Virus record (IMG/VR): IMGVR_UViG_3300037635_002892
Location: 1-21,870 of that record
DNA: 21,870 nucleotides
Origin: a virus
Reading direction: 5' to 3' (one strand)
Shown here: positions 3,404 to 16,936 of the stretch, piece by piece
How positions within the stretch are numbered: the first letter of the stretch is position 1
Layout of the letters: each line of letters begins with the position of its first letter
Position numbers and translations under genes: made by a program
Notes under the pieces: generated by a model
The model's input: only the letters and a program-made list of their open reading frames with translations
What the model was told of the DNA's origin: nothing
The model's database searches: none

Positions 3404-4888
3404 ATGAGCAATCAATTTGATATACCTCTTGAATTCCTTACTGACGATGAAATAGCAGAGCTTAGTAAGGTAGTAGGGCGATTAGATGAGGTGTCTAAAA
3501 GGGACGAGTCGCAGGGCGACTTCATGTCTTTTGTTAAGCAAGTTTGGCCTACTTTTGTAGAGGGTAATCATCACAAGATATACGCAGACAAGCTTCAGAA
3601 GGTTGCTGAGGGGAAAATAAAGCGTTTAATTGTGAATATGCCGCCCCGGCATACTAAGTCTGAGTTTGCCAGTTATCTGTTTCCTTCGTGGTTAATGGGT
3701 AGGAAGCCCGATACCAAGATTATTCAAGCGACACACACGGCTGAGTTGGCTGTGGGTTTTGGTCGTAAGGTTAAGAACCTCATTGACAGTGAGGTGTACC
3801 GCGATGTTTTTCCTGACTTGGCTTTGGCGTCTGATGCCAAGGCTTCAGGGCGTTGGAGTACAAGTAAAGGTGGGGAATATTATGCCGTGGGTGTTGGTGG
3901 CGCGTTGGCTGGTCGTGGTGCTGATTTGTGTATTATTGATGACCCTGTTTCTGAACAGGATGCGTTATCACCCACAGCACTTGATAATATTTACGAGTGG
4001 TACACTTCAGGCCCCCGACAGCGCCTCCAGCCGGGAGGCTCAATAATTATCGTTATGACGCGGTGGAGTATCCGCGACTTGACGGCGAAGGTTTTACAGA
4101 AGCAGGCCGAGGGTGGCGCCGACCAGTGGGAGGTCGTTGAGTTTCCTGCCATTTTCCCTGATAACGACAAGGTTCTATGGCCTGAATATTGGAAAAAAGA
4201 GGAGTTAGAGTCTGTAAAGGCCTCTATTCCTGTAGCTAAATGGAACGCGCAGTATTTGCAGAACCCCACTGCTGAAGAGGGCGCGATTATTAAGAGGGAA
4301 TGGTGGAATGTATGGGATAGCGATAGCCCCCCAGCTTGCTCCTACATCATACAGTCGTATGACACCGCATTCTCTCAGTCAGAGAGAGCTGACTTTTCTG
4401 CCATTACTACTTGGGGTATTTTTGACCCTGGCGATGGAGATGGGGAGGCCATCATACTCTTGGATGCCCAGCGAGGTAGATGGGATTTTCCAGAGCTCAA
4501 GGAGCAAGCGCTCGAGTTATATGATGAGTTCGACCCCGACATGGTTCTGGTTGAACAGAAAGCTTCCGGCACTCCTTTAACGCAGGAATTACGGCGCATG
4601 GGCATTCCTGTGACGCCGTTTACGCCGTCTCGTGGCGCCGATAAATTTACCCGCATGAATGCCTGTGCACCTGTGTTCGAATCTGGTATGGTGTATAGGC
4701 CTGATATGAACTTCGCTGAAGAAGTCGTTGAGGAATGTGCCGCTTTTCCTAACGGCGAGCATGATGACTTGGCGGATTCGATGACACAGGCTATACTAAG
4801 GTTCAGGCAGGGTGGGTTTATTGTTGCTCCCACTGATTATGATGAAGATGATTACAGAGAGTTTCGTAGGAAACGGGAGTATTACTAA
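3404..4888 (+). CDS. terL: Terminase large subunit (TerL), 494 aa
   Basis: This is the ATP-driven packaging motor and nuclease that translocates phage DNA through the portal and cuts concatemers. The N-terminal ATPase shows a Walker A-like MPPRHTKSE (79-87), a Walker B DLCIIDD (174-180) and a coupling-type TRW (219-221). The C-terminal RNase H-like nuclease shows acidic residues in the expected places: D320 in QSYDTAF, E384 in VEQKASG, and D454/D455/D458 in EHDDLADS. Its length is usual for the family. It starts 4 nt after the upstream gene and its stop overlaps the next ATG (TAATG at 4886-4890). No neighbouring small terminase is recognised. All catalytic motifs are present, so it should be functional. 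Confidence 0.95.
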   Translation: MSNQFDIPLEFLTDDEIAELSKVVGRLDEVSKRDESQGDFMSFVKQVWPTFVEGNHHKIYADKLQKVAEGKIKRLIVNMPPRHTKSEFASYLFPSWLMGRKPDTKIIQATHTAELAVGFGRKVKNLIDSEVYRDVFPDLALASDAKASGRWSTSKGGEYYAVGVGGALAGRGADLCIIDDPVSEQDALSPTALDNIYEWYTSGPRQRLQPGGSIIIVMTRWSIRDLTAKVLQKQAEGGADQWEVVEFPAIFPDNDKVLWPEYWKKEELESVKASIPVAKWNAQYLQNPTAEEGAIIKREWWNVWDSDSPPACSYIIQSYDTAFSQSERADFSAITTWGIFDPGDGDGEAIILLDAQRGRWDFPELKEQALELYDEFDPDMVLVEQKASGTPLTQELRRMGIPVTPFTPSRGADKFTRMNACAPVFESGMVYRPDMNFAEEVVEECAAFPNGEHDDLADSMTQAILRFRQGGFIVAPTDYDEDDYREFRRKREYY

Positions 4889-5118
4889 TGGCTGGATGTG
4901 GTTCAAAACCTAAGAAGATGGAAAAGGGCGGCCCTACCGCTCCCATCATGTCTGATGAAGTAAAAGAGATTCGCAAGAGAAAGCGCAAAGAGCGCAATGC
5001 TAGTACAGAGCAAACTGAAATGCCTTCAAAGAAAATGCGCGAAGCTATGGCTAAAGGCTATAAAAATGGCGGCTGTGTGATGTCTGGGCGCGGCGGTAAA
5101 TTCAAGGGGATTTCGTAA
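4888..5118 (+). CDS. Small basic protein with C-terminal GG tag, 76 aa
   Basis: First of a run of small basic proteins between TerL and portal. The protein is rich in Lys and Arg, including the block EIRKRKRKERN in its middle. It ends in NGGCVMSGRGGKFKGIS, which is nearly the same as the end of the 86-aa protein at 5978-6238. A partial echo (KMEKGGP) occurs near the N-terminus. The start overlaps the TerL stop by one base, with GGGAG upstream. The tag codons contain AAGGGG (5104-5109), ideally placed (8 nt) to be the Shine-Dalgarno of the next gene. No enzymatic domain or membrane segment is seen. Its strong positive charge would fit nucleic-acid binding or packaging with the genome, but this is inference. 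Confidence 0.75.
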   Translation: MAGCGSKPKKMEKGGPTAPIMSDEVKEIRKRKRKERNASTEQTEMPSKKMREAMAKGYKNGGCVMSGRGGKFKGIS

Positions 5119-5120
5119 TG
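5062..5120 (+). repeat. Tag-coding DNA repeat, copy 1
   Basis: This 59-bp stretch encodes the end of the 76-aa protein plus the next start codon. It aligns without gaps to 6182-6240, with about 48 of 59 bases matching by my count. Many differences are synonymous, while AAG GGG ATT is invariant. The copy points to duplication or strong shared constraint. Confidence 0.7.
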
Positions 5121-5324
5121 GGTAAAGAAACTACAACTCAGCGAGTGGGTCAGCTTGCAATGAATAAGCGGGCTCCCCATGTGAAAATAGGCGGAAAGCA
5201 TAAAGGAATTCGTTTTACCGTGGACAAAGACGGTAATGTTGTTCGTCACTACAAAGACGGCGGCGCTGTCTGTCGTGGCATGGGCGCTGCAATGGGTGGC
5301 GGCAAATTTGTAGGAGTTAAGTAA
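5118..5324 (+). CDS. Small basic protein with C-terminal GG tag, 68 aa
   Basis: The product is a short basic protein whose centre (KHKGIRFTVDKDGNVVRHY) could form a small beta hairpin. It ends with DGGAVCRGMGAAMGG followed by KFVGVK, a longer version of the tag shared with its neighbours. The start is coupled to the previous stop (TAATG), with AAGGGG at 5104-5109. The last codons include GGAG (5313-5316), which sits 9 nt from the next ATG and can act as its ribosome site. No known fold is recognised. The protein resembles small proteins I associate with uncultured marine phages, without a known function. Confidence 0.75.
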   Translation: MGKETTTQRVGQLAMNKRAPHVKIGGKHKGIRFTVDKDGNVVRHYKDGGAVCRGMGAAMGGGKFVGVK

Positions 5325-5325
5325 G

Positions 5326-5751
5326 ATGCCTAAGAATCAATATTTAACAGCTATGGAAAAGGCCCTTTTGCAGATTGATAACCCTCAGACCAGAGCCCGC
5401 GCCCGTAAGGCCGAGTTAGCTCGCAAACGCGCTGGATTAAAGGTTGCTCAAGATGTAGAAGATATCAAGGCTGGCCGCAGAAACCCGATTATCGAGATTT
5501 TTGAAAATATGGCTGGCAAGTATGAAGATGGTGGCGAGGCTAAGAACAAGCCCGGCTCTACTTTTAAGCCTATGGATATGGGTGGCGACATTCTTAATTC
5601 ATACCTTGAGGGCATTGGCAACAGCAAGGATACCACTGTTAAGGGCGGTGCCAGAAAGCCGAAGCCGAAGAAAATGGCAAAAGGTGGTCATGTTTCTCCT
5701 CGTAAGGCGCAGGGCATGATGTATGGCGGCCAGGTTCGAAAGAAGAAGTAA
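5326..5751 (+). CDS. Basic helical protein with two GGxV motifs, 141 aa
   Basis: The N-terminal half is strongly helical and basic (ARARKAELARKRAGLKVAQD, about residues 24-43). The middle is Gly/Lys-rich, with EDGGEA near residue 67. The C-terminal 25 residues hold two further motifs, AKGGHVSPR and MYGGQVRKKK. They belong to the same GGxV theme as the neighbours but lack the terminal FKGI. It starts one base after the preceding stop and its own stop overlaps the next ATG (TAATG). It is probably a cytoplasmic or virion-internal protein. The family is not recognised. Confidence 0.75.
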   Translation: MPKNQYLTAMEKALLQIDNPQTRARARKAELARKRAGLKVAQDVEDIKAGRRNPIIEIFENMAGKYEDGGEAKNKPGSTFKPMDMGGDILNSYLEGIGNSKDTTVKGGARKPKPKKMAKGGHVSPRKAQGMMYGGQVRKKK

Positions 5752-5978
5752 TGGAAAAGATTGACGGCCTTACACTGAAGCAGATTATGGTAAAGGGGAC
5801 GACACAGGGTGTGTCTAGCCTTACCAATGCTCAGTACGATGCGTTCAACAAGGGCAACGCAAACATTAAGGCTGGTGTTCCAAACTTCAGCAAGAAGCCT
5901 CGTAAGTACGCTTCTGGCGGCGCGGTTCGTGGTTATGGTGCCGCGACCTCTGGCACAAATTTTAAGGGGATTTTCTAA
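5751..5978 (+). CDS. Small protein with C-terminal GG tag, 75 aa
   Basis: The first two thirds are helical and mildly basic (MEKIDGLTLKQIMVKGTTQG onward, with an Asn/Ala-rich stretch). The end is SGGAVRGYGAATSGT followed by NFKGIF, the shared tag. The start is coupled to the upstream stop through TAATG. Inside the tag codons AAGGGG (5964-5969) lies 8 nt from the next ATG at 5978, exactly as in the first tagged gene. The bodies of the tagged proteins are unrelated to each other as far as I can see, so the tag behaves like a transferable module. Function unknown. Confidence 0.75.
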   Translation: MEKIDGLTLKQIMVKGTTQGVSSLTNAQYDAFNKGNANIKAGVPNFSKKPRKYASGGAVRGYGAATSGTNFKGIF

Positions 5979-6238
5979 TGATTAGACAAGCTCCAAAGGC
6001 TGTGCGGAAAAGCAAAGGACCCAAATTACGTTATGAAGGTGGTAAGTTAGGGGACGCTCCTGACGCTGACGCTTTATTCTTGCAGCTAAGGCGTTTGCAG
6101 AGCGGTGATAATACGCTTTATCTTGACCCAGATGCTGAGGCAATAGAAAAAAGCCTTCGCGGCAAAAGGGTTGAGAAAATGAAAAATGGTGGCGCTGTGC
6201 TTTCTGGGCGTGGCGGTAAGTTTAAGGGGATTTTCTGA
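5978..6238 (+). CDS. Small basic protein with C-terminal GG tag, 86 aa
   Basis: The N-terminus is very basic (RQAPKAVRKSKGPKLRYEGG). The middle resembles a short helical domain (DALFLQLRRLQSGDNTLYLD). The end is NGGAVLSGRGGKFKGIF, differing from the 76-aa protein's tag at only a few positions. The stop TGA overlaps the next ATG (TGATG), and AAGGGG at 6224-6229 is again 8 nt from that ATG. Together with its neighbours it forms a five-gene cluster of basic proteins between TerL and portal. Its role is not known. Confidence 0.75.
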   Translation: MIRQAPKAVRKSKGPKLRYEGGKLGDAPDADALFLQLRRLQSGDNTLYLDPDAEAIEKSLRGKRVEKMKNGGAVLSGRGGKFKGIF

Positions 6239-6240
6239 TG
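6182..6240 (+). repeat. Tag-coding DNA repeat, copy 2
   Basis: This is the second copy of the tag-coding segment at 5062-5120, offset by 1120 bp. Recombination between the two copies would delete four intervening gene units while leaving an intact tag and ribosome site. Confidence 0.7.
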
Positions 6241-6651
6241 TCTGTTATCCGCATTGAAATCGACATGAATAGCATTGAGGACATGATTCCCGGCTACGGC
6301 GATGGGGATGATGACAACTTCGTGTGCCCTGTTGCTACGCAGGATGAGAATATAAACGAAGAAAATAAACAGGCTGCTGTGGACGAGTATTCTTATGGAC
6401 CAACAACTGCGACTTGGGAAAACAAGAACGCTCGTTGCGGTACTTGCCAATACTTTAATCTTCAGTCGTCTATGTTGAATTGTATCTCTGAGGGATTAGG
6501 CTTGGAGGAAGGTGTGGGCTATTGTGATAAGTTGCACTTTGCTTGCTCTATGGAGAAGATTTGCAATATGTGGGAACTAGGCGTTCCTAAAACAGATGGT
6601 GATTTAGAGGACTATCCTTCTGACATGGGCAACCAGAGGGATATTCTATAA
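6238..6651 (+). CDS. Cys-rich, possibly metal-binding protein, 137 aa
   Basis: The N-terminal 65 residues are acidic. The second half contains a compact cysteine cluster: C67-x2-C70 (RCGTCQYFN), C82, C96 (GVGYC), C103 and C109, ending in CNMWE. A further Cys lies at residue 30. The spacing CxxC...C...GYC resembles zinc-binding or small iron-sulfur (HiPIP-like) proteins. Similar Cys-rich proteins occur near portal genes of marine phages as far as I recall, without a proven function. It is translated from a TGATG overlap with AAGGGG as ribosome site. Its acidic character contrasts with the basic neighbours. Metal or cluster binding is inferred only from cysteine spacing. Confidence 0.7.
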   Translation: MSVIRIEIDMNSIEDMIPGYGDGDDDNFVCPVATQDENINEENKQAAVDEYSYGPTTATWENKNARCGTCQYFNLQSSMLNCISEGLGLEEGVGYCDKLHFACSMEKICNMWELGVPKTDGDLEDYPSDMGNQRDIL

Positions 6652-6767
6652 TGAGGTTGGGACGGATATTTGTAGACAAGGGCAATGCCCTTCGTCCTTG
6701 TCCTGGCGCGAGTTTTACCTCCAATCCACGCGCCGCATTGTCCGTTCCAACGCTTTTAAAGGGGTAA
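6651..6767 (+). CDS. Very small coupled ORF, 38 aa
   Basis: This short frame fills the otherwise empty 119-bp gap before the portal. Its ATG overlaps the preceding stop (TAATG), and AGAGGG at 6635-6640 provides a ribosome site with 10-nt spacing. The product is basic and Pro/Leu-rich, beginning MRLGRIFVDKG and ending VPTLLKG. The last two codons AAG GGG (6759-6764) are the portal gene's Shine-Dalgarno, the same arrangement as in the tagged genes. A small stem (AAGGGC-AAT-GCCCTT, 6678-6692) lies inside it. It may be a real peptide gene or simply a translated leader that couples the portal to upstream translation. No homology is recognised. Confidence 0.45.
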   Translation: MRLGRIFVDKGNALRPCPGASFTSNPRAALSVPTLLKG

Positions 6768-6770
6768 GAG

Positions 6771-9218
6771 ATGGCTATTGAAAAGGGTATCGGTTCTGGT
6801 GGTGATAACATCATCCCTATGAACCCAGAAGAGCAAATCGACATTGTTGAAATGGCAGCAGAGCCAGGTCAAATAACAATGGATGATGGCTCTGTTCTAT
6901 TGGGTGATATCTCAGAAGAAATGATGATGACTGAGGTGCCAATAGAAATTCCTTTCGATGCCAACTTGGCAGACTACATGGATGAGTCTGATGCCACCGC
7001 GATTGCTTCTGACTTGGTAGGCGATATCGAAGATGATATGAGCTCTCGTCAAGATTGGGAAGATACTTACAAGAATGGTATTGAGCTTCTTGGCATGAAG
7101 TACGAAGAGCGCTCTCAGCCGTTTGAAGGTGCCTCTGGCGTTGTGCATCCTTTGCTTGCTGAGTCTGTTACTCAGTTCCAAGCGCAGGCTTATCGTGAGT
7201 TATTGCCCGCTGGCGGTCCCGTCCGCACACAAATTATTGGTGATGAGAATAGAGATGTTTTGGCGCAAGCTGAGCGCGTCAAGAATTACATGAATTACCA
7301 GATTACTTACGAGATGGAAGAGTATGACCCTGAGTTAGACCAGATGCTGTTCTATCTTCCGCTAATAGGCAGTACCTTTAAGAAGGTTTACTTTGACCCG
7401 TTGTTACAAAGAGCGGTGTCCAAGTTTGTGCACGCTGAAGATTTAGTCGTTCCCTATTCAGCCACAGACTTGGCATCCGCCAATCGCATTACGCACATCG
7501 TAAAGATGAACAAGAATGAGGTTCGCAAGCTTCAGCTTACAGGTTTCTATTCTGACATTGATTTGCCAGGCGATGGTTATTCCGAAGAAGATTACTCAGA
7601 AGTCCAAGAGACTATTGATGACGTTCAGGGCATTTCTCCTACTGGAGACAATGAGGACATTACGTTGTACGAAGTGCATACAAACTTAGACCTTCCTGGG
7701 TTTGAGGATTTGGATGCAGAGAACGAAGAAACAGGCTTGCAGCTTCCTTACATTGTTACTATCTGTGAGAAAAACGGTAAGGTCTTGTCAATTCGCCGTA
7801 ACTATGAGCAGACTGACCCGCTTCGCCGCGCCAAGCCTTATTTTGTTCATTACAAGTTTCTTCCCGGTCTTGGCTTCTATGGCTTTGGTCTAACGCATAT
7901 GATTGGCGGCTTATCGCAGGCAGCCACAAGCCTTTTGAGACAGCTTATTGATGCTGGTACGCTGTCCAACCTTCCGGCAGGATTTAAAGCGCGTGGTGCT
8001 CGTATTCGTGACGAAGATGAGCCACTAAATCCCGGTGAATTCCGAGATATTGATGTTGCTGGCATGGATATTCGTCAGTCACTGATGACCCTGCCATTTA
8101 AAGAGCCCTCACAGACGCTGTACTCGCTTCTGGGTACGCTTGTTGACTCAGGACGTAGGTTTGCGTCTATGGCCGATATGAAGGTGGCTGAGATGGGCGG
8201 AGAGACGCCTGTAGGCACCACTATGGCTATTATGGAGCGCGGCACAAAAGTCATGTCCGCCATTCATAAGCGTTTGCACTATTCTCAGAAGGTTGAGTTT
8301 AAGCTACTGGCCAATGTTTTCGGCAAGTTTATGGCGCCTATGTATCCGTATGCAGTTCCTGGCGCTCCTCCAGAAATAAAGACGACAGACTTTGATGACC
8401 GCATTGATGTCTTGCCAGTTTCAGACCCGAACATTTTCTCTATGTCTCAGCGCATTGCTTTGGCGCAGACAGAATTGCAGTTGGTTCAGTCTAATCCTGA
8501 AATCCATGGAAATGAGCGCGGCCTATATCAAGCGTACAGAAAAATGTATGAAGCGTTAGGAGTTACCAATGTTGATTCCATACTCCCTCCACCACCTCAG
8601 CCACAACCTACTAATCCGGCTAAGGAGAATCAAGAGGCTATGCGAGGCAAGTCTTTACAGGCTTTCCCAACACAGAATCATCAGGCGCATATCGAAGCGC
8701 ACCTCGCTATTATTGCAACACCTGTGGCACAGGCTAACGCAGCTATAGTGATGACCTTGCAGGGTCATATTCAAGAACATCTTGGATTTATGGCTGAGCA
8801 GATGGCTCAAGAAGAAGTTACTTCAGGCCTAACTCAAGAACAAATGATGCAGTTGCAGGCCTCTCCAGAAGGCATGCAAGCATTGCAAGACGACATTGCT
8901 TCTCGTGCTGCTGAGCTTGTTGGAGAGCTAACAGAGCAATATGCACAGGCGGTGGCCCCACCACAACAGCAAGACCCTCTAGTGGCCATTCGCCAGCAGG
9001 AGCTTGCTTTACGCGGCGCTGACATACAGCGCAGAGCTAAAGAGGCTGAAGATAGAGCCCAGCTTGACCGCGAAAAGGAAATGAATGACCAGATGGAAGC
9101 TTCGGCCCGCATTAGCATTCAAAAAGAAGCTCTGGACGAAAAAACCAGAGTTGCAGAGGAGCGCATTCAAACTCAGCGCGATATTGCAGCGTTAAACAAC
9201 ATGTCAAAGGGGCAATAA
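6771..9218 (+). CDS. Portal protein, 815 aa
   Basis: The product is the dodecameric ring at the unique capsid vertex through which DNA is packaged and ejected. The call rests on position after TerL, large size and portal-like features. These are an acidic N-terminal extension (about 1-75), the conserved-looking ERSQPFEGASGVVHPLLAES region (about 106-125), a central beta-rich domain, and an Ala/Gln/Glu-rich C-terminal coiled coil (about 730-805) resembling a barrel. At 815 aa it is in the size class of P22-type portals rather than the shorter T7 or HK97 types. This agrees with a P22 gp4-like adaptor downstream. AAGGGG lies 6 nt before the start. Another AAGGGG (9207-9212) at its end serves the next gene. 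Confidence 0.85.
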   Translation: MAIEKGIGSGGDNIIPMNPEEQIDIVEMAAEPGQITMDDGSVLLGDISEEMMMTEVPIEIPFDANLADYMDESDATAIASDLVGDIEDDMSSRQDWEDTYKNGIELLGMKYEERSQPFEGASGVVHPLLAESVTQFQAQAYRELLPAGGPVRTQIIGDENRDVLAQAERVKNYMNYQITYEMEEYDPELDQMLFYLPLIGSTFKKVYFDPLLQRAVSKFVHAEDLVVPYSATDLASANRITHIVKMNKNEVRKLQLTGFYSDIDLPGDGYSEEDYSEVQETIDDVQGISPTGDNEDITLYEVHTNLDLPGFEDLDAENEETGLQLPYIVTICEKNGKVLSIRRNYEQTDPLRRAKPYFVHYKFLPGLGFYGFGLTHMIGGLSQAATSLLRQLIDAGTLSNLPAGFKARGARIRDEDEPLNPGEFRDIDVAGMDIRQSLMTLPFKEPSQTLYSLLGTLVDSGRRFASMADMKVAEMGGETPVGTTMAIMERGTKVMSAIHKRLHYSQKVEFKLLANVFGKFMAPMYPYAVPGAPPEIKTTDFDDRIDVLPVSDPNIFSMSQRIALAQTELQLVQSNPEIHGNERGLYQAYRKMYEALGVTNVDSILPPPPQPQPTNPAKENQEAMRGKSLQAFPTQNHQAHIEAHLAIIATPVAQANAAIVMTLQGHIQEHLGFMAEQMAQEEVTSGLTQEQMMQLQASPEGMQALQDDIASRAAELVGELTEQYAQAVAPPQQQDPLVAIRQQELALRGADIQRRAKEAEDRAQLDREKEMNDQMEASARISIQKEALDEKTRVAEERIQTQRDIAALNNMSKGQ

Positions 9219-9494
9219 ATGTCAGCAAGTTCACTAAACCGCAAAGTTGCAGAGATAGAAAAAGCCAAGAAAGTGGAGCGTAGAAATGCCGCTATTAAAA
9301 GGTACGAGTCAGAAAACGATATCGTCAAACATATCGAAGTTGAGGAGCGAGGGGTACCCGCAGAGACAATCAGTAGCGATAGCCCTGAACCAATCAAAGC
9401 CGAAGCCCCAAAGGCAAAGCCCAAAAAAGCAGCCAAAAAAGCCAGTAGCGCTAAAAAAGGGTGGAGTAGTAAAAGGGTTCTCTCCGATAGCTAG
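9219..9494 (+). CDS. Basic/acidic coiled protein overlapping the next gene, 91 aa
   Basis: It starts immediately after the portal stop (TAAATG) with a strong AAGGGG Shine-Dalgarno 6 nt upstream. The N-terminal 45 residues look helical (VAEIEKAKKVERRNAAIKRY). The rest is Pro/Glu/Lys-rich and low in complexity, with Ala-Lys repeats (KAKPKKAAKKASSAKKG). From 9286 onward its DNA is also read in another frame by the GG-tagged protein at 9286-9522, giving about 209 bp of dual coding. The start signals argue that it is translated. The low-complexity second half may be a by-product of the Lys/Pro-rich overlapping frame. No family is recognised. Confidence 0.55.
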   Translation: MSASSLNRKVAEIEKAKKVERRNAAIKRYESENDIVKHIEVEERGVPAETISSDSPEPIKAEAPKAKPKKAAKKASSAKKGWSSKRVLSDS

Positions 9495-9522
9495 GCCACA
9501 AAGATTTCAAGGTGTTTTCTAA
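9286..9522 (+). CDS. Conserved small phage protein with C-terminal GG tag, 78 aa
   Basis: The N-terminal 35 residues match a pattern common in small phage proteins: TSQKTISSNISKLRSEGYPQ followed by RQSVAIAL, normally read as a short helical motif of unknown function. A Lys/Pro/Gln linker follows, then KGGVVKGFSPIARPQ and RFQGVF, a diverged version of the tag at 4888-6238. The ATG has GGAG at 9275-9278 with 7-nt spacing. AAGG at 9509-9512 precedes the next start, which overlaps the stop (TAATG). It is encoded largely within the 91-aa gene in a different frame. Because of the recognisable motif this frame is the more certain of the two. Confidence 0.75.
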   Translation: MPLLKGTSQKTISSNISKLRSEGYPQRQSVAIALNQSKPKPQRQSPKKQPKKPVALKKGGVVKGFSPIARPQRFQGVF

Positions 9523-11221: not shown

Positions 11222-11416
11222 ATGGACGTAATAGCACTTTCCGAACATTTGTTAAAGAACATCCGACAGCAGAAGGATGACTATGCAACTATGCTGTCGA
11301 ATGGTGCGGTAGAGAATATGGAAAACTACCGCTTTATAGTGGGTCAAATACGCGGTCTGACTTATTGTGAAGATGAAATTAGGGCCGCGATGAAAGGTGT
11401 CATTGAAGATGGCTAA
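11222..11416 (+). CDS. Small helical phage protein, 64 aa
   Basis: A short soluble protein, probably a two-helix bundle: LSEHLLKNIRQQKDDYATML and NYRFIVGQIRGLTYCEDEIR. Proteins with the ALxEHLLKxIR...YRxxxGQIRGL pattern are frequent in tailed phages near lysis or head genes, to my knowledge without assigned function. A GGAGGGG Shine-Dalgarno precedes the start. Its end overlaps the GroES-like gene by 8 bp (ATG at 11409). Confidence 0.75.
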   Translation: MDVIALSEHLLKNIRQQKDDYATMLSNGAVENMENYRFIVGQIRGLTYCEDEIRAAMKGVIEDG

Positions 11417-11894
11417 GAAACTATTCGTACCTGATAGGGTTACGGCAAATATGAAGTCTGACGCGCCGCAGACGCAAATCCCAAAGGCGGTAGAAAAAGC
11501 TCTTCCACAAGACGAAGAGAACAAAAACACACAGAACCCATCTGAAATGGACGGCTCTGCTTTAGAGAGGTTGCCACAGCCAGTGGGCTATCGACTTCTT
11601 GTAATCCCATATTACCCACCAGCAAAGACGAAGGGCGGAATCTACATTCCTGATGCAACTCGTGACAGAGAAGCATTTGCTACTGTTGCTGCGTATGTCG
11701 TTAAAGTGGGCCCAGACGCATACAAAGACAAGGATAAGTTTCCTTCAGGCGAGTGGTGTGGTGAAAAATCATGGGTACTTATGGGCAGATATGCTGGAAA
11801 TAGGTTCAAAGTGGACGGTCTTGAGGTAAGGCTCATAAATGACGATAACATTATCGCCACTATACTTGACCCATCAGATATCTCATATGTATAA
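11409..11894 (+). CDS. GroES-like co-chaperonin, 161 aa
   Basis: The protein should cap the host GroEL chamber and assist folding of phage proteins, as gp31 does for the T4 capsid protein. The C-terminal 108 residues carry the Cpn10 fold: PVGYRLLVIPYYPPAKTKGG (58-77), a mobile loop with the GroEL-binding hydrophobic tripeptide in GGIYIPD, then GEKSWVLMGRYAGNRFKVDG and the end NDDNIIATIL. The first 53 residues are a polar, unstructured extension absent from bacterial GroES (about 97 aa). An in-frame GTG at 11397 is possible, but ATG at 11409 gives a normal start. It sits directly before scaffold and capsid genes, which fits a role in capsid folding. Confidence 0.85.
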   Translation: MAKKLFVPDRVTANMKSDAPQTQIPKAVEKALPQDEENKNTQNPSEMDGSALERLPQPVGYRLLVIPYYPPAKTKGGIYIPDATRDREAFATVAAYVVKVGPDAYKDKDKFPSGEWCGEKSWVLMGRYAGNRFKVDGLEVRLINDDNIIATILDPSDISYV

Positions 11895-11912: not shown

Positions 11913-12833
11913 ATGAGTATTGAAGAAATGCAAGAAGCAGAAGAAACTCTAACATTTGATGTTGATGAATCGGATGATTTGTCCTCTGCAAAGTCAGAAG
12001 ATAAACCCGAACAATTGTTAGATGTTTCTAATGACTCAGGGGCATCAGACGATGGCGCCTCTGATGATGATTTGGAAAACTACAGCGGTAATGTGCAGAA
12101 GCGCATTAACCAATTAACTGCAAAGCGAAAGCAGGCTATTGAAGAAGCGCAAGCCGCCTATCAATACGCTCAGCAAATGGCTCAAGAAAATGAGCATATT
12201 AAACAGCAGTTATCCCAGCAGCAGCAGGGTTATATTAACGAATATGGCACCCGTGTAGAATCTCAGCATGAACAGGCCAAAAGACTTCTAAAAGAAGCTC
12301 GTGATATTGGCGACATCGACAAAGAGATGGAGGCTCAGGACCTTCTTGCTCGCTTAGCTATTGAAAGAGAGCGTGTGCGGGTTCAAAAGACCCGTCAAGA
12401 GCAAGTTACAGAGCAGCCAGTTCAACAGGCACAGCAAGCGGCTCCACAGAGGGCGCAAGCTCAACCGTTGGACCAGAAGCTGGTTAGCTGGATGGAAAAG
12501 AATGATAGCTGGTTTAACAAGGATATGGTGATGACAAGTGGTGCAAAGGCCATTCACGATACTCTTGTTGGGGCCGAGGGCTTTGACCCAACCAGTGATG
12601 ATTATTATGCGGAAATTGATAAGCGTATGCGTAAAGAGTTTCCTCACAAGTTTCAGTCGCAGCGGCAAAACGCCCAAGCTGTTGCGCCTGCGTCCTCTGG
12701 ACGGTCTGTAAAATCAGGGCGGAAAAAGACGGTGGAATTATCCCCAGGACAAGTGGCTTTCGCCAAGAAGATGAATATTCCTCTTGAGCGGTATGCAAGA
12801 GAAGTCGCTAAACTAGACTCAAGGAGTTCATAA
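11913..12833 (+). CDS. Capsid scaffolding protein, 306 aa
   Basis: This is an internal scaffold that guides procapsid assembly and leaves before DNA packaging. It has the classical layout. There is an acidic, disordered N-terminus (1-55, Asp/Glu/Ser-rich), then a long Gln/Ala/Glu coiled coil (about 62-165). A Gln/Pro linker follows, and then a basic C-terminal part (about 240-306, including SGRSVKSGRKKT) suited to binding the capsid shell. GGAGG lies upstream. It is followed without gap by the head-region gene and then the capsid. No protease gene or protease domain is seen nearby, so cleavage is not indicated. Confidence 0.8.
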   Translation: MSIEEMQEAEETLTFDVDESDDLSSAKSEDKPEQLLDVSNDSGASDDGASDDDLENYSGNVQKRINQLTAKRKQAIEEAQAAYQYAQQMAQENEHIKQQLSQQQQGYINEYGTRVESQHEQAKRLLKEARDIGDIDKEMEAQDLLARLAIERERVRVQKTRQEQVTEQPVQQAQQAAPQRAQAQPLDQKLVSWMEKNDSWFNKDMVMTSGAKAIHDTLVGAEGFDPTSDDYYAEIDKRMRKEFPHKFQSQRQNAQAVAPASSGRSVKSGRKKTVELSPGQVAFAKKMNIPLERYAREVAKLDSRSS

Positions 12834-13288
12834 TGGTAGACCGCACAAGCCGGGATTCGCAAACCCGTGAAAAAACAGCGAGAGTAGATGCTTGGCGCCC
12901 ACCATCAACCCTTGAAGCACCAGAGGCCCCTGTGGGCTTTAAACACCGCTGGATTCGTGAGTCCGTAATGGAATACGATGACCGCAACAACGTCCATAAG
13001 CGCCGCCGTGAAGGTTGGGAGCTTGTACGGGCGGAAGATTACCCTGATTTTGATGCACCTGTCATTGATGAAGGAAAGAACGCTGGCGTAATCGGCGTAG
13101 GTGGTTTGGTTCTTGCCAGAATACCTGAAGAGATTGTGGAACAGCGTGATGCACATTACCGTAGTGTCACAGAAAATCAAATGGAAGCTGTAGATAGAGA
13201 CTGGATGCGTGAGTCCAATGCGGCCATGCCCAAGCTAAATCCGCAGCGTTCAAGTCAAGTAACTTTTGGCTCAAGAGGCCAAAAATAA
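12833..13288 (+). CDS. Conserved head-region protein, 151 aa
   Basis: A soluble charged protein lying between scaffold and decoration/capsid genes, the position in which I recall similar proteins in marine phages. Recognisable islands are FKHRWIRESVMEYDDRNNVH (35-54), then GWELVRAEDYPDFD and GGLVLARIPEEIVEQR. The ending NPQRSSQVTFGSRGQK is basic. It starts on the scaffold's stop codon (TAATG), with AAGGAG upstream. Function unknown; the location suggests a part in head assembly. No catalytic motif is seen. Confidence 0.75.
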   Translation: MVDRTSRDSQTREKTARVDAWRPPSTLEAPEAPVGFKHRWIRESVMEYDDRNNVHKRRREGWELVRAEDYPDFDAPVIDEGKNAGVIGVGGLVLARIPEEIVEQRDAHYRSVTENQMEAVDRDWMRESNAAMPKLNPQRSSQVTFGSRGQK

Positions 13289-15473: not shown

Positions 15474-16223
15474 ATGCCCCACGAGATACGCTCTATAACC
15501 CAGGTTGGTACATCTGAACCATTTGAGTTACAGGTGTCTCGTGGGCAAATTACTTTACATTACAACCTTCATAAGTTTGGTTTTAATTCTCTTGTTCAGA
15601 ACGTAGAGGAAACCATTTGGGATGTGGGCGGTATATATGCCTACCCATCTTCTGCTGTAAAGATGACAGCGACTAGCACAGATGGCGCTAATGATGAAGA
15701 TGTGCAAGTAACCATTCAAGGCCTTGATGCAGATTATAATGAGCTGTCTGAAACGGTGACGCTTGATGGTTCAGGAACAGCAGAGACAAATAGTTTCTTC
15801 TTGCGTGTAAACAGAGCGTTTATTGCTGGCTCACAAGAGCCTTCAGGTACCATCAACATTACTAACGCCTCCACTACATACGCACGCATAACTTTGGGCG
15901 AGAATCAAAGTTTAATGGCTATATGGACTGTACCCGCTGGTTATACCGCGTATATGTTCCAAAACAATACAACTTGTTACACTGAGCAAAACAATAAGTT
16001 CGGCATCACAAAGCTTGTCACGAGAGAGCCTGGCGGCGTATTCAGAACACAAGACAAACATACTGTTGTTTTGAGTCAAAATGTTGTTGATTACCTAATT
16101 CCTAAGTCTATCCCAGAAAAAACTGATATTGAAATGAGAGCTATTGCCAGTAGCTCAAACGCGAACCTACAGGTTTCCGCAAGCTTTGATATCGTGTACA
16201 TTAAGAATGAGGTAGGTGTATAA
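15474..16223 (+). CDS. Virion structural protein, 249 aa
   Basis: This is a beta-sandwich-like protein rich in Thr, Ser, Val and Asn. It has islands that I recall from structural proteins of marine podoviruses and related phages: ETIWDVGGIYAYPSSAVKMT (66 onward), then QGLDADYNELSETVTLDGSG, then LMAIWTVPAGYTAYMF and a late EKTDIEMRAIASSS. The alternation suggests two beta domains. It may be a capsid-associated or fibre protein. The ribosome site AGGAG is close to the start. Its stop overlaps the next ATG (TAATG). Confidence 0.75.
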   Translation: MPHEIRSITQVGTSEPFELQVSRGQITLHYNLHKFGFNSLVQNVEETIWDVGGIYAYPSSAVKMTATSTDGANDEDVQVTIQGLDADYNELSETVTLDGSGTAETNSFFLRVNRAFIAGSQEPSGTINITNASTTYARITLGENQSLMAIWTVPAGYTAYMFQNNTTCYTEQNNKFGITKLVTREPGGVFRTQDKHTVVLSQNVVDYLIPKSIPEKTDIEMRAIASSSNANLQVSASFDIVYIKNEVGV

Positions 16224-16516
16224 TGGCACGCAAAAAAGAAAAGCCCATTCGCAAGACCACTGGTAAGGGCGGTAATTACCGCAAGACCAAAGCTGGCGCG
16301 GGTATGACAAAGAAGGGCGTTGCAGCTTATCGCAAAGCAAATCCTGGCTCAAAGTTAAAGACCGCCGTAACGGGTAAGGTTAAAAAAGGTTCGGCTGCTG
16401 CAAAGCGCCGCAAATCATTCTGCGCTCGTAGCGCTGGTCAAATGAAGAAGTTTCCGAAGGCGGCCAAAAATCCTAACAGCCGTCTGAGACAAGCGAGGCG
16501 GAGATGGAAGTGCTAG
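16223..16516 (+). CDS. Highly basic conserved protein, DUF6321-like, 97 aa
   Basis: About a third of the residues are Lys or Arg. The core TKAGAGMTKKGVAAYRKANP then GSKLKTAVTG, followed by KRRKSFCARSAGQMKKFPKA and a final RLRQARRRWKC, matches a conserved small family that I believe is DUF6321, found in tailed phages and also in some eukaryotic viruses. No structure-based function is known to me. The charge suggests nucleic-acid binding, perhaps within the virion, because the gene lies in a structural block. Its last 13 bp overlap the following membrane-protein gene. Confidence 0.75.
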   Translation: MARKKEKPIRKTTGKGGNYRKTKAGAGMTKKGVAAYRKANPGSKLKTAVTGKVKKGSAAAKRRKSFCARSAGQMKKFPKAAKNPNSRLRQARRRWKC

Positions 16517-16750: not shown

Positions 16751-16936
16751 ATGCCAAAAGATGCTTGTTATAAAAAAGTAAAAGCGCGTTACCGCGTGTT
16801 TCCTAGCGCGTATGCAAGCGGCGCCATTGCAAAGTGCCGTAAAGTTGGCGCAAAAAATTGGGGAAACAAATCTAAAGCGAAGAAAATGCGCGGCGGCGGT
16901 GCCGTTATGAGAGACAAGCCAACATCTATGTATTAA
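16751..16936 (+). CDS. Small basic conserved protein with GGGAV motif, 61 aa
   Basis: It starts MPKDACYKKVKARYRVFPSA, then YASGAIAKCRKVGAKNWGNK, a recognisable short phage family of unknown function with paired cysteines (C6, C30). The C-terminus is MRGGGAVMRDKPTSMY, which carries the GGxV motif of the tagged proteins but not their FKGI end. The frame is open from 16691, but GGGGAG at 16738-16743 is 7 nt from the ATG at 16751 and the family pattern begins there. It lies between the membrane protein and the DUF5872-like gene in a compact cluster of basic proteins. Confidence 0.75.
   Translation: MPKDACYKKVKARYRVFPSAYASGAIAKCRKVGAKNWGNKSKAKKMRGGGAVMRDKPTSMY

Follow-up and report, generated by a model that had tools for sequence, protein, structure and literature searches.

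Why should several small basic proteins with different bodies, encoded around the terminase and portal genes of a single phage, end in one and the same short peptide? This question is raised by a stretch of viral DNA of 21,870 nucleotides (IMG/VR record IMGVR_UViG_3300037635_002892; analyzed at its full length and hereafter called the window), in which an earlier note had pointed out five such proteins. That observation is real, and it is larger than was described: in one lineage of marine phages, dozens of small basic proteins that are otherwise unrelated terminate in a common short peptide, hereafter called the tag. This peptide resembles an address label that a shared partner would read and, if it is one, it predicts the destination of dozens of unknown proteins.

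Tagged Proteins of the Window

All five proteins were confirmed together with their tags. The tagged cluster is bordered upstream by the gene for the terminase large subunit (TerL; 3404–4888, + strand; phrog_38, E 2e-113) and downstream by the portal gene (6771–9218, +; phrog_1216, E 2.2e-50). Between these borders, a basic protein of 76 aa (4888–5118, +; pI 10.2) ends in the class A tag NGGCVMSGRGGKFKGIS (5065–5115, +), a protein of 68 aa (5118–5324, +; pI 10.6) in the class C tag DGGAVCRGMGAAMGGGKFVGVK (5256–5321, +), a protein of 75 aa (5751–5978, +), relatives of which carry class A or class C tags, in the class C tag SGGAVRGYGAATSGTNFKGIF (5913–5975, +), and a protein of 86 aa (5978–6238, +; pI 10.2) in the class A tag NGGAVLSGRGGKFKGIF (6185–6235, +). 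Past the portal, a protein of 78 aa (9286–9522, +) ends in the class D tag KGGVVKGFSPIARPQRFQGVF (9457–9519, +), and the N-terminal 44 residues of its body are covered by a match to the phrog_2423 profile (E 6.4e-12). The class labels are regular expressions that are approximate at their edges: A denotes GRGGKFKGxx, C denotes RGxGAAxRGxxFxGxx (the 5118 tag of the window included), D denotes FSPIARPQRFxGxx, and E denotes GGTSSQMTGxxFKGxx.

The end F-x-G-[IV]-x-COOH is present in exactly five of the 35 listed genes of the window; when residues were shuffled within each protein, the mean was 0.012 such ends per window, with a maximum of three in 20,000 trials. The earlier note had also counted GGxV-bearing stretches as partial forms of the tag, and this part did not hold up. 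GGxV is a common Gly-rich spacer here, and is too common without an FxG end to count as a partial tag: it also occurs in the 831-aa protein (residues 77, 296, and 592), in the portal (residue 148), and in the product of 12833–13288 (residue 90), and the 5326–5751 protein has GGxV units and no terminal FxG.

TerL, portal, GroES, scaffold, and the major head protein (a phrog_371 match) are homologous to, and in the same order as, their counterparts in the HTVC023P-type/SU10-portal lineage; the GroES co-chaperonin gene (11397–11894), located between portal and scaffold, is retained in the cultured relatives of this lineage. The product of 6238–6651 is an acidic protein (pI 4.1) with Cys residues amid the basic tagged genes. 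In addition, 9219–9494 and 9286–9522 overlap by approximately 200 nt on the same strand in different frames, the second being the tagged one; relatives of the former are found in 58, and of the latter in 89, of 148 TerL/portal loci.

Occurrence in Related Phages

Searches of IMG/VR with TerL and portal yielded these 148 loci. A tblastn search of cultured phages with a 21-aa tag and the 86-aa protein returned no matches; short tags require DNA patterns, and pattern scans for three tag classes added about 330 further loci, at least. Overall, at least 507 distinct tagged proteins were found among related viral contigs. Single linkage places them in about 92 body families, 56 of which are singletons; this number is approximate, as the largest family is joined by shared sub-modules (so that 92 may be too low there) and a few overlong ORF calls are included. 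The cultured pelagiphage HTVC023P, which infects HTCC1062, has two tagged genes, namely gp32 (QGZ17661.1), located directly after the portal, and gp51 (QGZ17680.1), near the tail genes, which make the tag simply testable in a cultured phage.

Position of the Tag

The patterns used in the position scans set no condition on the stop of the reading frame, and the distance of the tag from the carboxyl end is exact in this lineage. The protein ends exactly two residues past FxG in all 84 distinct contexts listed for class C, in all 95 listed for class D, and in 79 of the 94 listed for class A. Fourteen of the 15 class A exceptions are on contigs without any of seven lineage marker genes, and the fifteenth is on a contig (L259) with a TerL match only. 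When contigs with lineage genes are considered, the motif lies exactly two residues before the stop in 98/98 (A), 137/137 (D), and 123/127 (C) of the matches listed; outside the lineage, RGGKFKG is found internally in unrelated proteins.

A search of 84,980 genomes of bacteria and archaea gave no match for the class C pattern and five for the class D pattern. Three of these five are terminal and belong to contigs of metagenome-assembled genomes (MAGs; Rhodobacteraceae, Planktomarina, and Verrucomicrobiota) that encode the lineage portal, and these are most likely phage contigs binned with bacteria; the other two are non-terminal, with no lineage gene. The placement of these three contigs (L493, L494, and L495) could be a hint to the hosts or a result of misbinning.

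A comparison that presupposes no motif gave the same picture. When the small proteins encoded on one contig were compared with each other in 14-residue words (13,685 pairs from 96 contigs, some of them redundant), a score of at least 25 was reached by 169 pairs of C-termini, 6 pairs of N-termini, 3 pairs of the stretch preceding the tag, and no pair of random internal words. The position scans, the roughly 92 body families, and this comparison thus bear out the proposal that one tag sits on unrelated basic proteins, strictly at the C-terminus.

Protein-Level Conservation

It might be thought that the shared end merely encodes the ribosome site of the next, overlapping gene and that the amino acids follow. 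Codon usage does carry such a signal: GGA encodes Gly(-3) in 52% of coupled and 33% of uncoupled genes, as against 19% in bodies, and Lys(-4) is present in 74% of coupled versus 31% of uncoupled genes. AAAGGA thus doubles as the Shine-Dalgarno sequence of the next gene. However, the tags draw on all four Gly codons and on both codons for Phe, 126 proteins retain the tag with no start within the next 30 nt, and the conserved positions -9, -8, and -15 are located upstream of the Shine-Dalgarno position. An origin at the DNA level is thus refuted as the sole cause, and we regard this account as extremely improbable; it stays as an overlay on codon choice. The earlier note had named two outcomes that would refute its reading, namely no excess of the tag at protein ends and conservation at the DNA level only; neither was obtained, although the codon bias at the last Lys-Gly is real.

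The tag consensus is R-G-x-x-F-x-G-[VI]-x. The definition of the set fixes F(-5) and G(-3) in the 92 family representatives, and at positions partly or not fixed by the search the conservation is also high: R(-9) 91%, G(-8) 85%, G(-15) 85%, and V/I/L at -2 89%. Compared with the body, the tag has a lower pN in each of the seven families that have enough members; its dN/dS is also lower in five of six families for which a value could be computed. Both comparisons are biased in that members that have lost the tag fall outside the set. Overall, the sequences place the conservation at the protein level, with the ribosome site only biasing codons.

Bodies and Exchange of Tags

The tagged bodies are basic (median pI 10.1; 90% above 8) and otherwise diverse. 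Among 90 tagged proteins, Pfam gave scattered single matches only, and PADLOC, which spans defence rather than counter-defence proteins, gave no families. The first 42 residues of the tagged protein of contig L298 are shared with PHIKZ165.1 and with the N-termini of two PHROGs that carry an annotation as virion structural proteins, the virion label reaching this one short module only. Some bodies are also found without a tag: the CARGKAAAKRKFKVYPSAYANAY module occurs in Prochlorococcus phage P-SCSP2, where it lies next to the scaffold gene, and the phrog_2423 body in P-HS2, PP21, and a Manatee Spring phage.

Single body families bear tags of different classes. In the clearest case, the bodies of two proteins (contigs L016 and L103) are 96% identical over 143 residues, whereas one ends in AVMAGRGGKFKGIS and the other in IALRGNNFKGVF; class A is carried in one phage and class C in another. 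As judged from such sequences, tags are modular add-ons to bodies. In AlphaFold models for two families (5751–5978 and 9286–9522), the body forms two helices, and the tail behind it, modelled at low confidence, has hardly any predicted structure; fold searches of two body models found nothing in the PDB at E 0.001 or better. Short modules also recur within bodies at many loci (L197, L251, and L016, for example), namely SGKTISDADRARL, SKLPExVQxKMDPxLAxKY, and the EF-hand/dockerin-like DLTGDGKVTRxDIL, and the small proteins seem to be assembled from shared pieces.

Genomic Placement and Candidate Receptors

The expectation that tagged genes cluster near TerL and portal was borne out. In 80 non-identical contigs, 143 of the 261 genes between TerL and portal are tagged. 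By comparison, none of the 460 genes upstream of TerL has a tag; the portal–capsid interval has 6 among 211 genes (the class D gene, which is mostly directly after the portal, is often missed by the gene caller as it overlaps another frame), and the 69 genes after the capsid have none. If the second type of terminus (see below) is counted, a tagged gene is present in the TerL–portal interval or immediately past the portal in 75 of the 80 contigs. Gene content in the TerL–portal interval turns over only moderately faster than downstream: at 80–90% TerL identity the Jaccard index is 0.23, versus 0.40 for portal–capsid, and at 97% or more there is no difference.

Relatives with no detected tag have portal, scaffold, and capsid genes in common with the tagged phages, and a receptor should therefore be a lineage-specific site or protein. 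The 831-aa protein was rejected as a candidate, since the presence of its relatives is not associated with the tag (p = 1.0), and so was the acidic 6238–6651 protein as a universal receptor, as it is missing from most tagged loci. Relatives of the latter occur only at loci with tags between TerL and portal (26/63 versus 0/17, p 0.0008), an association confounded by relatedness.

Proposed Function of the Tag

The exact distance to the carboxyl end, the fixed aromatic and Gly residues, the flexible linker, and the exchange between bodies together point to a C-terminal recognition peptide. From this anatomy we infer that the tag is recognized at the C-terminus, which is well supported, and that one protein receptor would read the free carboxyl end. 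The confinement of the tag to one structural lineage, and the crowding of tagged genes next to TerL and portal, suggest in turn that the partner takes part in virion assembly. We therefore propose, seeing an even chance that it is correct, that the tag is a C-terminal sorting peptide: a single protein of virion assembly would recognize it, and small proteins, in a set that can change, would in this way be loaded into the particle. The flexible Gly-rich linker (GGxV) would present the terminal element, that is, basic residues followed by F-x-G-[I/V]-x-COOH, which would fit a groove on one lineage-specific protein, probably of the head or packaging-vertex assembly. Any small protein gaining the tag would be carried to the same place, so that a single address would serve these phages for a variable repertoire of small basic cargo. 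The cargo would most likely become part of the virion, inside the head or in the portal region, and could there neutralize or organize DNA, or it could be delivered to the host. The analogy with the capsid-targeting sequence (CTS) of T4 and with encapsulin peptides makes loading into the particle the most likely outcome; the literature searched held nothing usable on virion proteomes of relatives or on a virion role of phiKZ 165.1.

The clustering between TerL and portal, and the class D gene right after the portal, might also suggest that the tag recruits small assembly cofactors to the packaging/portal machinery in the infected cell, and that these leave before or during maturation rather than become virion cargo. 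We consider this somewhat unlikely, because HTVC023P-like phages have a tagged gene near the tail genes and rapid turnover of bodies is unusual for cofactors of conserved machines. The Arg/Gly-rich tags and the high pI of the bodies would also suit a nucleic-acid-binding, RGG-like tail, acting together with the basic bodies to condense DNA or bind RNA and needing no specific protein receptor; however, RGG-type elements need no fixed distance to the C-terminus, the terminal aromatic-Gly-aliphatic pattern is preserved, and RG is missing from the class D and E cores except for the RPQRF stretch, which makes this account improbable. Hydrophobic C-terminal ends can act as degrons, and a signal for degradation or regulated proteolysis is conceivable but very unlikely: to our knowledge, the tag ends do not resemble ssrA-type ends, and such a role leaves the restriction to one structural lineage and to the TerL–portal interval unexplained.

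A Possible Second Type of C-Terminal End

Similar proteins of the same lineage bear other ends, including GGxV-RGMGRAYMGxPRKxKIR, GGKFKVR, GGIVSRVKKTKYF, and KKKTKIY. A second shared end (GGxV-RGMGRAYMGxPRKxKIR, KKTK[IY][YF]-like) is found at six loci (L058, L074, L138, L140, L189, and L214) and apparently in the window, where a small basic protein (16751–16936, +) ends in GGGAVMRDKPTSMY, possibly a second tag type that is not FxG. By their sequences, this protein and HTVC023P gp30 (GGGMARMKPTKMY) look like members of this second kind. It should be noted that the small basic products of 16223–16516 and 16751–16936 match different parts of single large PHROG proteins (phrog_727 and phrog_3477), the modules of which are fused in some phages and separate in the window, and that the 16751 module is widespread among T4-like cyanophages.

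A broader proposal, which we offer tentatively and as the less probable outcome, is that the lineage has a C-terminal sorting code, in which two or more kinds of terminal peptide (F-x-G-[IV]-x and Lys/Arg-rich ...K-[IVM]-[RY]) would direct dozens of small proteins, unrelated to one another and swappable, to defined virion sites, for delivery with the genome.

Comparison with Known Systems

A full-text search of the open literature, with subscription papers outside its scope, returned no description of the motif. Small proteins of phrog_2423 include the 9286–9522 body as a member, and the member from DSL-LC04 ends in KKKTKIY instead. The basic adaptor domain of PBCV-1 is a small basic element in different virion-packaged, DNA-associated proteins (PMC3281028). 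The tag is likewise a small basic element on different proteins, whereas that of PBCV-1 is a domain and belongs to eukaryotic viruses; its Pfam domain had no match among 90 tagged proteins.

The CTS of T4 is N-terminal and is cleaved by the prohead protease. It is a short conserved terminal peptide on diverse small basic internal proteins that are co-packaged, the bodies of which vary (PMC3012670). The likeness lies in one short terminal peptide on varied small basic proteins; however, the phage tag is C-terminal on its carriers (98/98, 137/137, and 123/127 contexts listed), and is unrelated in sequence, and the packaging of its carriers is a proposal.

Encapsulin cargo-loading peptides are short and C-terminal, are located on different cargo proteins, and are recognized by an HK97-fold shell (PMC8346489). 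The tag has the same layout, in that unrelated proteins carry it as a short C-terminal peptide preceded by a flexible linker, but its consensus, R-G-x-x-F-x-G-[VI]-x, is not TVGSL-like; in addition, encapsulin cargo consists of enzymes, and the receptor of the tag is only postulated. Overall, the tag is a member of neither the T4 CTS nor the encapsulin peptide family, differing in position from the one and in consensus from the other, and by analogy it may work like them. A shared address label of this kind could provide genetically encoded cargo loading into phage particles, as T4 CTS and encapsulin peptides do.
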